DNA of 48,858 nucleotides. It comes from an uncultured Cyclobacteriaceae bacterium. Lineage in GTDB: Bacteria > Bacteroidota > Bacteroidia > Cytophagales > Cyclobacteriaceae. This document shows, one piece after another, positions 38,634-44,162 of this stretch (the stretch's first letter is position 1; each line of letters opens with the position of its first letter). A model generated the notes under the pieces. The model saw only the letters and a program-made list of their open reading frames with translations. It made no database searches and was not told the origin of the DNA. The DNA lies in the NCBI GenBank assembly GCA_905479015.1, contig CAJQKV010000031.1, positions 1 through 48,858 on the forward strand. Reading direction: 5' to 3'. Made by a program: the position numbers and the translations under genes.

Positions 38634-39473
38634 ATGGACAAAAGATCATTTTTAAAAACTACGTTAACGGCCGCAATGGGACTGGGCACCTTGCCATTAT
38701 TGAGTAGATGCGAATTTAAGGCGAAGCCAAACACGGGTTTGCAATTGTATACACTGCGAGATTTAATGTCGGTAAATCCAAGGAAAACACTCGAGTATGT
38801 CGCCAAAGTAGGCTACAAGGAACTCGAAACAGCAGGTTACAGTGAGGGAAAAATGTATGGGTTGGATCCTTCTGAGTTTCATGGGATCGTCACCGATTTA
38901 GGGATGAAAATGGTAAGCGGTCATATTTCATTTAAAGATTTAAAGTCTGATTGGGGTCGAGTGCTTCAAATGCTGGAAGATACAGGTCAAAAATATGTAG
39001 TGCTTCCTCATTTAGAGGAGAACGAAAGGAACCTTGAGGTATATCATGAGGTGATTGAACTGCTCAATGAGAAGGGTGCAGAGCTGCGTCAGTTAGATAA
39101 AGTGATGGCCTATCACAATCATGCTTTTGAATTCGACAGCATTGGTAGTGTTGTGCCTATGGAGCTGTTGTTGAAGGAAACGGATGCTGAGGTAGTCGAT
39201 TTTGAGTTGGACCTCTATTGGACTGTGAAAGCAGGAGCGTCTGCATTAAATCTTTTTAAGAGATACAAAAATCGTTTTTCTTTATGGCATGTCAAAGATA
39301 TGAATCTGGCAGGAGATTTCACTGAGGTCGGCAATGGAGTGATTGATTTCCAAGAAATATTTGACCAGTCTCAGGTGGCTGGGATGCAACATTTTTTCAT
39401 TGAACAAGACCAATCGGTAGATCCTGAAAAGAGCATTGCGACTTCTTTTAAAAACCTGCAGGGTTTGTTGTGA
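38634..39473 (+). CDS. Exported xylose-isomerase-like TIM barrel protein (Tat-type lipoprotein signal)
   Basis: A 279-residue sugar isomerase/epimerase with a signal KRSFLKTTLTAAMG resembling a Tat motif (one Arg replaced by Lys) and a possible lipobox LLSRC. The barrel keeps MAYHNHAFEF, VDFELDLYWT and LWHVKDMN, with metal residues as in the cytoplasmic relative at 33879. The ATG follows directly on the previous stop, indicating tight coupling. An exported isomerase beside an envelope 3-keto-glycoside hydrolase suggests that part of the pathway works outside the cytoplasm. Confidence 0.85.
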   Translation: MDKRSFLKTTLTAAMGLGTLPLLSRCEFKAKPNTGLQLYTLRDLMSVNPRKTLEYVAKVGYKELETAGYSEGKMYGLDPSEFHGIVTDLGMKMVSGHISFKDLKSDWGRVLQMLEDTGQKYVVLPHLEENERNLEVYHEVIELLNEKGAELRQLDKVMAYHNHAFEFDSIGSVVPMELLLKETDAEVVDFELDLYWTVKAGASALNLFKRYKNRFSLWHVKDMNLAGDFTEVGNGVIDFQEIFDQSQVAGMQHFFIEQDQSVDPEKSIATSFKNLQGLL

Positions 39474-39492
39474 AGATTTGATTTTTTATGAC

Positions 39493-39882
39493 ATGAAAAA
39501 TAAAACGTTAAGTCTTGTTTTATCTGCGACCTTTCTCATTTTTGCCTACTTGAATTTAAATGATCCCGATCCTCTGTTATGGGTCAGTTTGTACGTATTC
39601 ATTGGGGTGATTCACTTATTAGGTTTATTCAAAACCCATTTTCCGTCACCTTTTAATCTTTCCTCAACTTGGCTTAAGTTTTATGTAGTCATATCCTTAA
39701 GTTTGCTAGCATATGGATGCTTTTATATTCCTGATTTAATCATTTGGTTATCGGCATCAGATAAAATGGATCTGGTGGGTAAAATGAAGGCTGAAAAATC
39801 TTATGTTGAAGGGACCCGAGAGCTTGGGGGTCTTCTTATCGCCAGTATGTCTATGGGCTACCAATATCTAAGTCAGAAATAA
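39493..39882 (+). CDS. TMEM220-type small membrane protein
   Basis: A protein of 129 residues from the ATG at 39493, 19 bp after the TIM-barrel gene. Four hydrophobic segments are seen, with the short motif LNDPDPLLW after the first, as in the transmembrane 220 family. The upstream start at 39436 overlaps the previous gene and adds no conserved part, so I reject it. Function is unknown; it may be a passenger of the sugar operon. It ends 23 bp before the metH promoter box. Confidence 0.75.
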   Translation: MKNKTLSLVLSATFLIFAYLNLNDPDPLLWVSLYVFIGVIHLLGLFKTHFPSPFNLSSTWLKFYVVISLSLLAYGCFYIPDLIIWLSASDKMDLVGKMKAEKSYVEGTRELGGLLIASMSMGYQYLSQK

Positions 39883-39914: not shown

Positions 39915-40020
39915 GTTATTATCAAGAAAGGTGGAGGGGTAAGGCCCATTGAAACCTTGGCAACCCCTGTAAAGAAAGGTGCCAAATCCTACTTCAGATA
40001 GTTGAAGAAAGATAACAAAC
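39915..40020 (+). promoter_or_regulatory. SAM-I (S-box) riboswitch upstream of metH
   Basis: The S-box core is intact: AAGAAAGGTGGAGGGG at 39924-39939, GGCCCATTGAAACC at 39943-39956, TTGGCAACCCC at 39957-39967, AGGTGCCAAATCC at 39977-39989 and GAAAGATAA at 40007-40015. P1 is formed by TTATC (39919-39923) with GATAA (40011-40015). There is no terminator after it. TTCTTGAT at 40036-40043 can pair with ATCAAGAA at 39921-39928, the 5' strand of the aptamer, so a switch that exposes or hides the metH start (40060) is plausible. SAM binding would lower methionine synthase output. Confidence 0.92.
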
Positions 40021-40059: not shown

Positions 40060-41058
40060 ATGACGATTCAAGAAGTTATCAAAGAAAGAATATTGATCCT
40101 CGATGGTGCCATGGGCACCATGATTCAGCGGCATGATCTGCAGGAAGAAGATTTCAGAAACGAGGCACTTAAGGACCATACTATTTCTCTCAAAGGGAAC
40201 AATGACTTGTTGTCTCTGACCCGTCCTGACATCATCAAATCAATTCATGAAGCCTATTTAGAAGCGGGAGCTGATATCATAGAAACCAATACCTTCTCAA
40301 GTACGAACATAGCACAAGCGGATTATGGTTTGCAAGAGTGGGTATATAAAATCAATTATGAGTCTGCCCGCATTGCCCGCGCGGCGGCGGATCAATATAC
40401 GGCATTAGACAGCAATCAACCCAGGTTTGTTGCGGGTTCTATTGGCCCTACCAATACGACGGCCTCGTTATCGCCCGATGTCAATGATCCAGGGTTTAGA
40501 GCGGTGACCTTCGACGCATTGAAATTAGCCTTTCGACATCAAATTGAGGCCTTACTGGATGGTGGAGTGGATCTACTTCTTTTTGAAACGATCATCGATA
40601 CCCTAAATGCCAAGGCAGCGCTTTTTGCGGCCGAAGAAGTCAAGGCCGAGCGCAATATTAATACACCGATCATGGTTTCGGGTACGATTACCGATGCCTC
40701 AGGACGGACACTTTCAGGTCAAACCACCGAAGCTTTTTTGATCTCTATTTCACATTGTGAGCTGTTCAGTGTGGGGTTAAATTGTGCTTTTGGTGCCGAA
40801 ATGATGCGACCTTTTTTAAAAATATTATCAGATAAATCTGACTTTATGGTCAGTGCTCATCCCAATGCAGGTCTGCCCAATGAGTTTGGTCAATACGACG
40901 AAACTCCTGAAGAAATGGTAGACCAAATCACCGCCTATTTAGAAGACCATATGGTCAATATCATTGGAGGTTGTTGTGGAACGACCCCTGATCACATTAA
41001 AGCAATAGCCACATTGGCCAAAAATTATAAACCTAGACAAATAGCGTATGCCCATTAA
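40060..41058 (+). CDS. metH: Methionine synthase, homocysteine-binding part (split MetH)
   Basis: A 332-residue protein equal to the first module of cobalamin-dependent methionine synthase. It binds zinc and homocysteine through Cys242 (GLNCAFGAE) and Cys305-Cys306 (IGGCCGTTPDH). The start ILILDGAMGTMIQ matches E. coli MetH near its N-terminus. The methylfolate, B12 and activation modules are in the separate gene at 41511, so both proteins must meet for the reaction. It lies under the SAM-I riboswitch and overlaps the QueF-like gene by 11 bases. Split MetH is known in Bacteroidota. Confidence 0.93.
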   Translation: MTIQEVIKERILILDGAMGTMIQRHDLQEEDFRNEALKDHTISLKGNNDLLSLTRPDIIKSIHEAYLEAGADIIETNTFSSTNIAQADYGLQEWVYKINYESARIARAAADQYTALDSNQPRFVAGSIGPTNTTASLSPDVNDPGFRAVTFDALKLAFRHQIEALLDGGVDLLLFETIIDTLNAKAALFAAEEVKAERNINTPIMVSGTITDASGRTLSGQTTEAFLISISHCELFSVGLNCAFGAEMMRPFLKILSDKSDFMVSAHPNAGLPNEFGQYDETPEEMVDQITAYLEDHMVNIIGGCCGTTPDHIKAIATLAKNYKPRQIAYAH

Positions 41059-41485
41059 ATTACATCAAGCCATCGACAAAAGTATTTTGAAAGCCATTCC
41101 TAATCCGACAAAGGAGGCTTACGAAATTAAAATAAAAATCCCTGAATTTACCTTTTTGGGCGTTCAAGAACAGCCGGATTTCGCTAATGTATACCTTACT
41201 TTTTATCCAAAAGGTAAGGTCATTGAGTTAAAGTCTTTGAAGCAATATGCCTTTCATTTACGTGACATAGTAGTTTCTTATGAGCGTTTAATTAATGTTT
41301 TTTATGACCACCTGATGGAGGTCTATGATCCTGAACGGCTTCGCATTGTGATGAATTGCAATCCAAGAGGGGGCATCAGCTCAAGGTTGACCATAGATTC
41401 TGATTGGGCGACTCGTGGAGGTGAAGAAAAATTTAAGGATTGGTTGCATGGTGGATCTGACGATTCATGGCAAGTTGTAATGTAA
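41048..41485 (+). CDS. QueF-like tunnelling-fold protein lacking the catalytic cysteine
   Basis: A 145-residue protein aligned over its length with type I preQ0 reductase Que[38 protein letters not shown] and NPRGGIS are in order. But the cysteine that binds the nitrile (FTSLCP in B. subtilis) is Gly38, with one residue missing after it, and the histidine of FHE is Tyr78. Asp44 and Glu79 remain. The only cysteine is Cys104, elsewhere. So nitrile reduction by the known mechanism is unlikely, while the purine/pterin pocket may persist. The gene overlaps the MetH N-terminal gene by 11 bases and is 25 bp from the MetH C-terminal gene, under a SAM switch, suggesting a role with MetH or its folate. 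Confidence 0.82.
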
Positions 41486-41510: not shown

Positions 41511-44162
41511 ATGAAACCCTTGATGTTATCGGGCCTTGAGCCGTTAATTGTTACTGCTGAGACCAACTTTGTCAATGTAGGTGAACGTACCAATGTGACT
41601 GGAAGCCTGCGTTTTGCTCGTTTGATTAAGGAGGGAAAATATGATGAGGCGCTAGAAGTAGCCTTGGATCAGGTACGTGGAGGCGCTCAAATTTTGGATG
41701 TCAACATGGATGACGGCATGTTGGATGGTAAAGCGGCGATGGTTAAGTTTTTACATCTGGTCGCTTCTGAACCTGAGATCGCCAGAATACCGATCATGAT
41801 AGATTCGTCCAAATGGGAAATCATCGAAGCAGGTCTGAAATGTGTTCAAGGAAAGGGAGTGGTCAATTCTATTTCACTCAAGGAGGGAGAAAAGATTTTT
41901 ATTGATCAGGCCCGAAAGATCAAGCAATACGGTGCGGCGACGGTCGTGATGGCTTTTGACGAAGACGGTCAGGCTGATACGTACGATCGGCGGATTCAAA
42001 TTTGTGAGCGGGCTTATCGGGTTTTGGTAGACCAGGTCAAATTTCCACCACAGGATATTATATTCGATCCCAATATTTTTCCTGTCGCTACCGGAATTTC
42101 AGAGCACAACAATTACGCCATTGATTTTTTTAAGGCCACAGAATGGATTAAAACTCATCTACCGGGAGCCAAAGTAAGTGGAGGAGTCAGTAATGTTTCT
42201 TTTTCATTTCGAGGCAATAATGTCGTTCGAGAAGCGATGCATTCCTCGTTCTTATTTCATGCCATCAACCATGGAATGGATATGGGGATTTTAAATGCGG
42301 GCTTGGTGGAGATTTATGACTTGATCCCCAATGAATTATTGCTGCATGTGGAAGACGTACTACTCAACAGGCGTGAAGATGCAACTGAAAGATTGGTGGA
42401 TTTTGCCGAAAGCGTCACGGGTACCGGTAAAGTAAAAATCGTTGATGATGAGTGGCGGAAAGGAACGGTAGAAGAAAGATTGGCACATGCCTTGATCAAA
42501 GGCGTCATTGATCATGTATTGGAAGATACCGAAGAAGCCCGACTCAAATATCCAAAACCCCTTCACGTCATAGAGCAGCCCTTGATGGCAGGGATGAATA
42601 CCGTTGGGGATTTGTTTGGCAGTGGTAAAATGTTCTTACCTCAAGTAGTGAAGAGTGCGCGGGTCATGAAGAAAGCGGTCGCTTATCTCTTACCTTATTT
42701 AGAAGCTGATAAGACAGAAAACAACAGCAGCAAGGGAAAAATATTAATGGCTACGGTCAAAGGGGATGTACATGATATTGGCAAAAACATTGTGGGTGTG
42801 GTGCTGGGATGCAATAATTATGACATCATAGATTTGGGTGTGATGGTTCCTGCTCAAAAAATATTGGAAGAAGCTGTAAATCATCAAGTAGACATCATTG
42901 GATTGAGTGGTTTAATCACTCCTTCTTTGGATGAGATGGTGACGGTGGCAGAAGAAATGGAGCGTAAGGGAATGAAAATTCCGTTGCTCATCGGAGGGGC
43001 TACGACTTCAAGAATCCACACTTCAGTAAAAATTGCACCTAAATACAGTGGTCCTACGATTCACGTACTGGATGCTTCAAAATCTGTAGCGGTAGCCTCC
43101 AAACTTTTGGGTGAAGACACAGCCGATTTCAGTGCGTCGATTCGGGCTGAATATGAGGGATTGGCCGTGGACCATCAGAGCAGGCAAGAAGCCAAAACAT
43201 TAATCACGATAGGTGCTGCCAGATCCAATCGAGTAGGGATTGATTGGCAAGAACATGAAGTACTCAAACCTTCTTTTTTGGGGACTAAAAAATTTGAGAG
43301 CTATTCATTGGAGGAAATCAGAAAATACATAGATTGGACGCCTTTTTTCTCGACATGGATGTTGAAGGGAAAATATCCTCAAATTTTTGAAAATGCGATC
43401 GTGGGAAGTGAGGCAAAGACACTTTTCAAAGAGGCCAATGCATTGCTCGATCAAATCATAGCGAAGGGCTCTCTTCAGGCCAATGCAGTCATTGGTTTTT
43501 TTGAAGCACAAGCAGTTCAAGATGATGTTGAGGTCAAAAATAACGCCGTAAATCGGCTTCATTTTCTTCGACAGCAAGGTAAGAAGGGATCTCAAATTCC
43601 TAATATTTCATTGGCAGATTATATTGCCCCTAAATCCTCCGAGAAGGGAGATTATATTGGAGGATTTGCGACGACCGCAGGGATAGGCATTGAAAAATTA
43701 ATAGCTGATTTTGAAGCAGATCATGATGACTACAATGTGATCATGGTAAAAGCGATTGCCGATCGACTGGCTGAAGCCTTTGCAGAATTAATGCATAAGA
43801 AGGTGAGGAAAGAATACTGGGGCTATGCACCAGAAGAAGATTTTGAAAACGCAGCATTGATCAAGGAAAAGTATCAAGGAATCAGACCGGCGCCAGGCTA
43901 TCCCGCGTGCCCTGACCATACCGAGAAAAAAGCACTTTTTGAATTACTACAAGTTGAAGAAAATACAGGGATTACCTTGACAGAATCCTATGCCATGTAT
44001 CCAGCCTCGTCGGTCAGTGGCTTTTATTTCTCGCATCCCAAGGCCCGATATTTTGGTTTGGGAAAAATCGGAGAGGACCAACTGGATGATTATGCAAATA
44101 GGAAGGCAATGGATAAGCAAGAAGCTGAACGTTGGTTGGCACCTGTATTAGGTTATAAATAG
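41511..44162 (+). CDS. metH: Methionine synthase, folate-, B12- and SAM-binding part (split MetH)
   Basis: An 883-residue protein with the remaining three MetH modules. Residues 1 to about 280 are the pterin-binding barrel ([32 protein letters not shown]); about 310-400 the B12 cap; about 405-540 the cobalamin domain with the lower axial His421 in GDVHDIG; and about 560-880 the activation domain with [15 protein letters not shown] at 792 on, where SAM binds for reductive reactivation. With the 332-residue partner the total is 1215, close to E. coli MetH (1227). No metF follows; a weak terminator lies downstream. Confidence 0.94.

Follow-up and report, generated by a model that had tools for sequence, protein, structure and literature searches.

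We propose, with a probability of about 0.65, that a cysteine-less homologue of QueF is a flavin-free, NADPH-dependent methylene-tetrahydrofolate (methylene-THF) reductase. The enzyme would derive from QueF, be able to replace MetF and feed the methionine synthase MetH. We refer to the protein as CQH, for cysteine-less QueF homologue. This name was chosen here because an archaeal enzyme is already called QueF-Like in the available portion of PMC5485725. It is also fairly probable that CQH defines a third structural class of methylene-THF reductase. The class would consist of a cysteine-less, flavin-free enzyme of the tunnelling fold (T-fold) that arose from QueF and took over from MetF in several lineages of Bacteroidota and in some Gammaproteobacteria.

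The window is the whole 48,858-nucleotide stretch of DNA analysed, from an uncultured Cyclobacteriaceae bacterium. Its CQH gene is real and lies between metH-N and metH-C, into which metH is split, in an operon headed by a SAM riboswitch (Table 1). As the sequence-only reading had claimed, the open reading frame is present, shares 11 bases with the 3' end of metH-N and stops 25 bp short of metH-C. The riboswitch that it placed ahead of the operon was likewise detected. The metH-N product matches positions 2-320 of the 1182 in the NCBIfam metH model. Directly 5' of the riboswitch is a TMEM220-like membrane gene (39436-39882), relatives of which occur at loci L039-L045.

Table 1. Elements of the CQH locus, in window coordinates.
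Feature	Coordinates	Strand	Details
SAM-I riboswitch	39916..40018	+	Upstream of operon; Rfam RF00162, 82.5 bits, E 4.6e-18
metH-N, homocysteine-binding part of split methionine synthase, 332 aa	40060..41058	+	Pfam S-methyl_trans 1.5e-101
CQH, cysteine-less QueF homologue, 145 aa, candidate flavin-free methylene-THF reductase	41048..41485	+	Pfam QueF 7e-17
CQH-specific C-terminal stretch, residues 118-145, absent from QueF	41399..41482	+	Discriminating columns D117-W120, G124, G125, W141
metH-C, 883 aa, methyl-THF-binding, B12-binding and activation domains	41511..44162	+	Pfam Pterin_bind, B12-binding_2, B12-binding, Met_synt_B12

We compared 36 CQH sequences with 11 cysteine-bearing QueF sequences in one alignment. 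Residue 38 is glycine in all 36 CQH rows, and all 11 QueF rows have cysteine in that column. This substitution had been read correctly from the window; indeed, the catalytic cysteine is missing from all 49 distinct CQH members read. The loop at the lost cysteine is one residue shorter than in QueF. Asp44 and Glu79, which had been noted as kept, are invariant in both groups. So are Glu60, Leu61, Lys65 and Tyr67 of the NADPH motif, for which E(S/L)K(S/A)hK(L/Y)(Y/F/W) of QueF was the reference. CQH reads ELK(S/A)(L/I)KxY at this motif. Lys62 is present in all QueF rows and in 35 of the 36 CQH rows, the other having R for the first K, and the L/Y position of the motif is variable in CQH (Q, L, M, H and others). 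Twenty-four positions are specific to CQH, with at most one of the 36 rows deviating at any of them; they include Arg80, beside the anchoring glutamate. The sequence-only reading also took Tyr78 to be a lost histidine. Histidine precedes the anchoring glutamate in B. subtilis QueF, but in Bacteroidota QueF rows that bear the cysteine the residue is Tyr or Phe (FYE, FFE, YFE). Tyr78 is thus ordinary.

Nor does the resemblance to QueF run the full length of the protein, as had been supposed. Both QueF profiles, Pfam and NCBIfam TIGR03139, end at residues 117-118 of the window protein. What follows, about 27 residues to the C-terminus (DSDWxxRGG...W), is an extension conserved within the CQH family. 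Against TIGR03139 the window protein scores 84.8 bits, under the 86.9 cut-off. Eight other members range from 80.1 to 95.7 bits, four above the cut-off and four below; two cysteine-bearing QueF proteins score 168.7 and 176 bits. A structure model of the window CQH has a pLDDT of 79.7, with residues 133-145 under 50. In a PDB fold search this model matched B. subtilis QueF (4f8b) best, then GTP cyclohydrolase I (FolE) and archaeal QueF-Like. The predicted fold thus places CQH in the T-fold superfamily. A Pfam scan of CQH at E values up to 1 gave no match to PF02219, the MetF family.

CQH relatives were gathered from 24 loci of named records, which encode proteins of 70-100% identity, and from searches of further genomes, many of them MAGs; genomes reached through loci come without completeness values. 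The proteins form one clade: the branch separating 46 CQH from 26 QueF sequences is supported 100/100, in a tree whose root is arbitrary and whose separating branch is long. Relatives from other orders, including records labelled as Gammaproteobacteria, still share at least 70% identity. Three within-genus pairs allowed dN/dS to be scored; the values are 0.02-0.05, with synonymous sites near saturation (dS 1.3-2.8). CQH is uncommon. It was found in 2 of 395 genomes of a phylum-wide sample, namely the window genome and G289. Samples of single orders gave 8 CQH genomes among 291 in the window's order, 15 among 299 in the order of G700 and 4 among 109 in the gammaproteobacterial order of G702. 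The window's genus has CQH in 7 of 10 genomes, the remaining three being 67-81% complete.

MetH requires 5-methyl-THF. Therefore, we looked for MetF in CQH genomes. Here, MetF means PF02219, the standard flavin-dependent methylene-THF reductase, and this search covered that family alone. The window genome (G000; 99.88% complete) has no PF02219 match. Counting this genome, MetF was not found in 17 of 27 CQH genomes tested, and the same model detects it in 11 of 14 control genomes. The comparison was then made within orders, using one-sided Fisher tests. In the order of G700 (299 genomes; MetF in 215), MetF is missing from 13 of 15 genomes with CQH versus 71 of 284 without (p = 2e-6, kinship ignored). 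In the window's order (291 genomes; MetF in 242), the counts are 7 of 8 versus 42 of 283 (p = 2e-5, or 5e-5 with seven weak matches counted as absent; kinship ignored). All 41 other genomes listed for the window's family have a MetF match. Several of the 42 genomes of the window's order with neither gene are small (~0.7-1.6 Mb). For the order of G702 (109 genomes; 80 with PF02219), two of the four CQH genomes have no match and two have divergent matches only (106-113 bits); the other 76 matches score 256.8-380 bits. Here p is 0.29 if the divergent matches are MetF and 0.007 if they are not. Pooling gives an odds ratio of 14.8 (p = 8e-12), with any PF02219 match counted as present and kinship ignored. 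Overall, 44 CQH genomes were tested: 30 have no PF02219 match, 2 have divergent matches only and 12 have an ordinary MetF. Hence, with exceptions, CQH is concentrated in genomes where no MetF was found and methyl-THF is needed. Separately, G1012, G1038 and G668 encode full-length PF02219 homologues, scoring 93-113 bits, that are distinct from ordinary MetF.

The exceptions speak against replacement of MetF. The 12 genomes with an ordinary MetF include 6 of the 7 Marinilabiliaceae tested, and at L046, L062 and in G668 both genes are in or near the same operon. Moreover, the order of G700 includes seven genomes with MetH and neither MetF nor CQH (L115-L122). Contig ends cut or split at least three of these seven MetH genes, and inspection by eye of the few frames neighbouring MetH showed no evident reductase. 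Either the assemblies are incomplete or a further substitute exists. In favour of replacement, these seven are the only ones with the MetH activation domain among the 71 genomes of that order that lack MetF and CQH. By contrast, all 13 genomes with CQH and no MetF have metH-C within the CQH locus, a count that is partly circular because CQH lives in that operon.

Gene order suggests how the two genes may have been exchanged. At L046, from Marinoscillum pacificum, and at L062, metH-C is followed by metF, an HMGL-like gene and a transporter gene, with one small insert in L062. At L045, the HMGL-like gene comes after metH-C with no metF between, and at L047 and L048 the transporter gene comes after metH-C without metF or the HMGL-like gene. 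None of these last three genomes has a PF02219 match. It looks as if metF dropped out of a syntenic operon that already contained CQH, genomes with both being an intermediate state.

We examined gene neighbourhoods in 50 genomes: 7 of the window's genus, 18 holding L045-L062, G026, G289, G668, five of the f8 family, 14 of the order of G700, G1012, G1038 and G1067. L039-L044, by matching coordinates, are six of the window-genus genomes and were counted once. The order of G700 totals 15 CQH genomes including G700 itself, which holds L050. A methionine gene (metH, metK or a Cys/Met-metabolism gene) adjoins CQH in 39 of the 50. Split metH is the neighbour in the window's genus, at L045-L048, L050, L051 and L062, in G668 and in the order of G700. 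At L105 the stretch contains only metH-C, and CQH is the first gene after the riboswitch. An extra gene separates metH-N from CQH at L051 and L062. Inserts in these metH operons encode a TerB-DnaJ protein at L051 (5132-5893) and two 23S_rRNA_IVP-family proteins at L062 (5585-5938 and 9214-9579).

Other arrangements also occur. In the gammaproteobacterial records L052 and L053, CQH is divergent from a full-length metH. At L125 and L126, in the same gammaproteobacterial order, it is divergent from a metH that is unbroken across the N/C junction and cut by the end of the stretch. At the five f8 loci CQH follows metK. In G289 it lies between a gene for a Cys/Met-metabolism PLP enzyme and a homoserine dehydrogenase gene. 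No methionine gene adjoins CQH in 11 of the 50 genomes: L049, eight Marinilabiliaceae (L054-L061), G026 and G1067. In seven of the eight Marinilabiliaceae (L054, L055, L057-L061; at L058, 6571-7665), CQH is directly followed by a selU-like gene with a rhodanese domain, which we take to resemble tRNA 2-selenouridine synthase. In five of these seven, TusA/YedF-like, class-V aminotransferase and AIRS/SelD-like genes come next. A membrane protein of family DUF6580 (PF20221) also recurs beside CQH (L066, 937-1494; L124, 911-1432; L065; L067-L069). Its gene lies between CQH and metH-N, on the side away from metK, at the five f8 loci, and between a cobalamin adenosyltransferase gene and CQH in G1067. 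At a guess, it could be part of a corrinoid transporter.

Of the Bacteroidota metH or metK loci scanned for riboswitches, most have one of SAM class ahead of the operon, as the window does; L048, L039-L043 and other window-genus loci were outside the scan. A SAM-class riboswitch is 5' of 14 of the 15 loci from the order of G700; the remaining stretch ends in metH-N. A SAM-I/IV riboswitch precedes all five f8 loci. SAM-class riboswitches also precede L044-L047, L051, L062 and L063, and L010 has one cut at its 5' end. None reached the gathering score at the eight Marinilabiliaceae loci, L049, L064 or the gammaproteobacterial loci L052, L053 and L124-L126.

The TIGR03139 scores, which lie near the cut-off and exceed it for four of nine members tested, would fit a CQH that still reduces preQ0 using another nucleophile. 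We consider this highly improbable, and a preQ0 reductase identity was rejected. The cysteine is absent from all CQH members read, and QueC was not found in the window genome, where the best match is partial (20.9 bits). QueC matches of at least 213 bits occur in only 13 of 44 CQH genomes. The match in G945 is split (63 + 35 bits) and the remaining genomes score 36 bits or less. Nine of the 13 QueC genomes carry a second QueF-family gene besides CQH (G441, G702-G704, G706-G710). All five second copies that were read have kept the cysteine (G702, G703, G441, G704, G709). In seven of the nine genomes the second gene is on the QueC contig, 0.2-1.9 kb from QueC. G705 has CQH only, with a QueC cut at the contig end. 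The search for second copies covered the QueC genomes other than G491, G1012 and G1038; weak second matches (20-27 bits) occur in G026, G454, G466 and G699. Hence, CQH is unlikely to be a queuosine enzyme, and it has very probably lost nitrile reduction, as the sequence-only reading had supposed. Loss of the cysteine might instead mark a decaying, functionless remnant of QueF. That reading is refuted because CQH is conserved: the low dN/dS, the identity kept across orders into gammaproteobacterial records and the invariant new residues rule out a pseudogene, leaving it a negligible chance.

CQH could alternatively be a non-catalytic partner of MetH, for folate binding, chaperoning or reactivation. 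Loss of MetF would then be coincidental or otherwise compensated, for instance by DMSP demethylation or import. Tight linkage to metH, also where metH is full length, agrees with this, as does the company of DUF6580 and cobalamin adenosyltransferase in G1067. Even so, we think it unlikely. A partner role does not predict the anti-correlation with MetF in two orders and gives no reason for the NADPH motif of QueF to persist. Moreover, CQH adjoins a Cys/Met-metabolism gene without an adjoining metH in G289, and is beside metK at the f8 loci. The narrower proposal that CQH helps the two MetH parts meet was discarded, given the unsplit metH beside CQH in gammaproteobacterial records. The L052, L053, L125, L126, f8 and G289 contexts also mean that CQH is not always in split metH operons. 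A further possibility, which we rate as quite unlikely, is that CQH uses NADPH to reduce a different pterin or one-carbon intermediate, such as dihydrofolate or an oxidation-damaged folate. Such a reductase would be co-regulated with methionine synthesis and might act elsewhere in Marinilabiliaceae. In favour of this, CQH retains the anchoring glutamate and most of the NADPH motif, some genomes carry both MetF and CQH, and the selU-like gene is a frequent neighbour in Marinilabiliaceae. SAM riboswitch control and the absence of MetF nonetheless point to the methyl-THF step itself. In Marinilabiliaceae, where MetF is usual and methionine neighbours are missing, CQH could have a different or additional role.

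The earlier interpretation therefore stands in part. Two of the refuting observations that it named did not arise: homologues adjoining metH also lack the cysteine, and the arrangement recurs in other genomes. A folate link, which had been suggested as binding of a pterin such as methyl-THF, is likely. Because CQH tends to be found where MetF is not, it more likely makes methyl-THF than just binds it.

We infer the substrate, cofactor, reaction and residue roles of the proposed methylene-THF reductase as follows. Glu79 would anchor the 2-amino-4-oxo pyrimidine of the pterin, as Glu97 of QueF does with preQ0. Asp44 (or Glu79) would act as the acid, opening 5,10-methylene-THF to the N5 iminium. 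NADPH, bound by the retained motif, would donate one hydride to give 5-methyl-THF for use by MetH. Glycine, in the remodelled shorter loop, would stand in place of the thioimide-forming cysteine. That cysteine would be dispensable because the iminium takes hydride directly; a cysteine-less QueF could keep its hydride chemistry since the substrate is already an iminium. In the available part of PMC5372742, Glu97 of QueF anchors preQ0 and NADPH is bound through the motif. According to the accessible text of PMC11094777, known methylene-tetrahydropterin reductases use a glutamate to protonate the substrate, forming a 5-iminium that accepts hydride. The donor is FADH2, F420H2 or NADH, and the same text describes mycobacterial Mfr as managing without a flavin.

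If correct, our proposal would explain how CQH bacteria without MetF run MetH. It would also correct a misannotation, since four of nine CQH members tested pass the preQ1 synthase model. Finally, it would show C=N reduction on the QueF scaffold to be possible when the cysteine is gone. The literature searched, which leaves out most subscription papers and preprints, shows no report of a QueF-like substitute for MetF. Likewise, by title and abstract, nothing relevant in it links QueF with methionine synthase, MetF plus MetH, methyltetrahydrofolate or a SAM riboswitch.

Among known systems, CQH has its best sequence match (7.5e-16) and best fold match in unimodular QueF, the preQ0 nitrile reductase of B. 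subtilis (PDB 4f8b, 4fgc, 5udg). CQH retains the counterparts of its Asp62 and Glu97, and the greater part of its NADPH motif. Unlike B. subtilis QueF, CQH lacks Cys55, has the shorter loop, the 24 family-specific positions and the C-terminal extension, and comes from a genome in which no QueC was found. Sequences without the catalytic cysteine are treated as non-QueF in the available part of PMC5372742. Archaeal QueF-Like, an archaeosine synthase (PDB 5jyx, 5k0p), is a T-fold relative and, from what the available portion of PMC5485725 describes, an earlier example of a QueF homologue that acquired another reaction. It has the thioimide cysteine that CQH lacks, and works with ammonia in archaeosine synthesis. 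FolE shares the T-fold and is a distant match to CQH by fold only. It makes a pterin from GTP without NADPH. MetF (PF02219) catalyses the reaction, at the pathway position, that we propose for CQH, but is an unrelated barrel with a flavin. The flavin-free methylene-THF reductase Mfr, identified only in mycobacteria as far as the accessible text of PMC11094777 goes, is also a barrel, and we claim no homology to CQH. Mfr does combine, according to the same text, flavin-free hydride transfer with an acidic residue that forms the 5-iminium, which is the chemistry proposed here for CQH.
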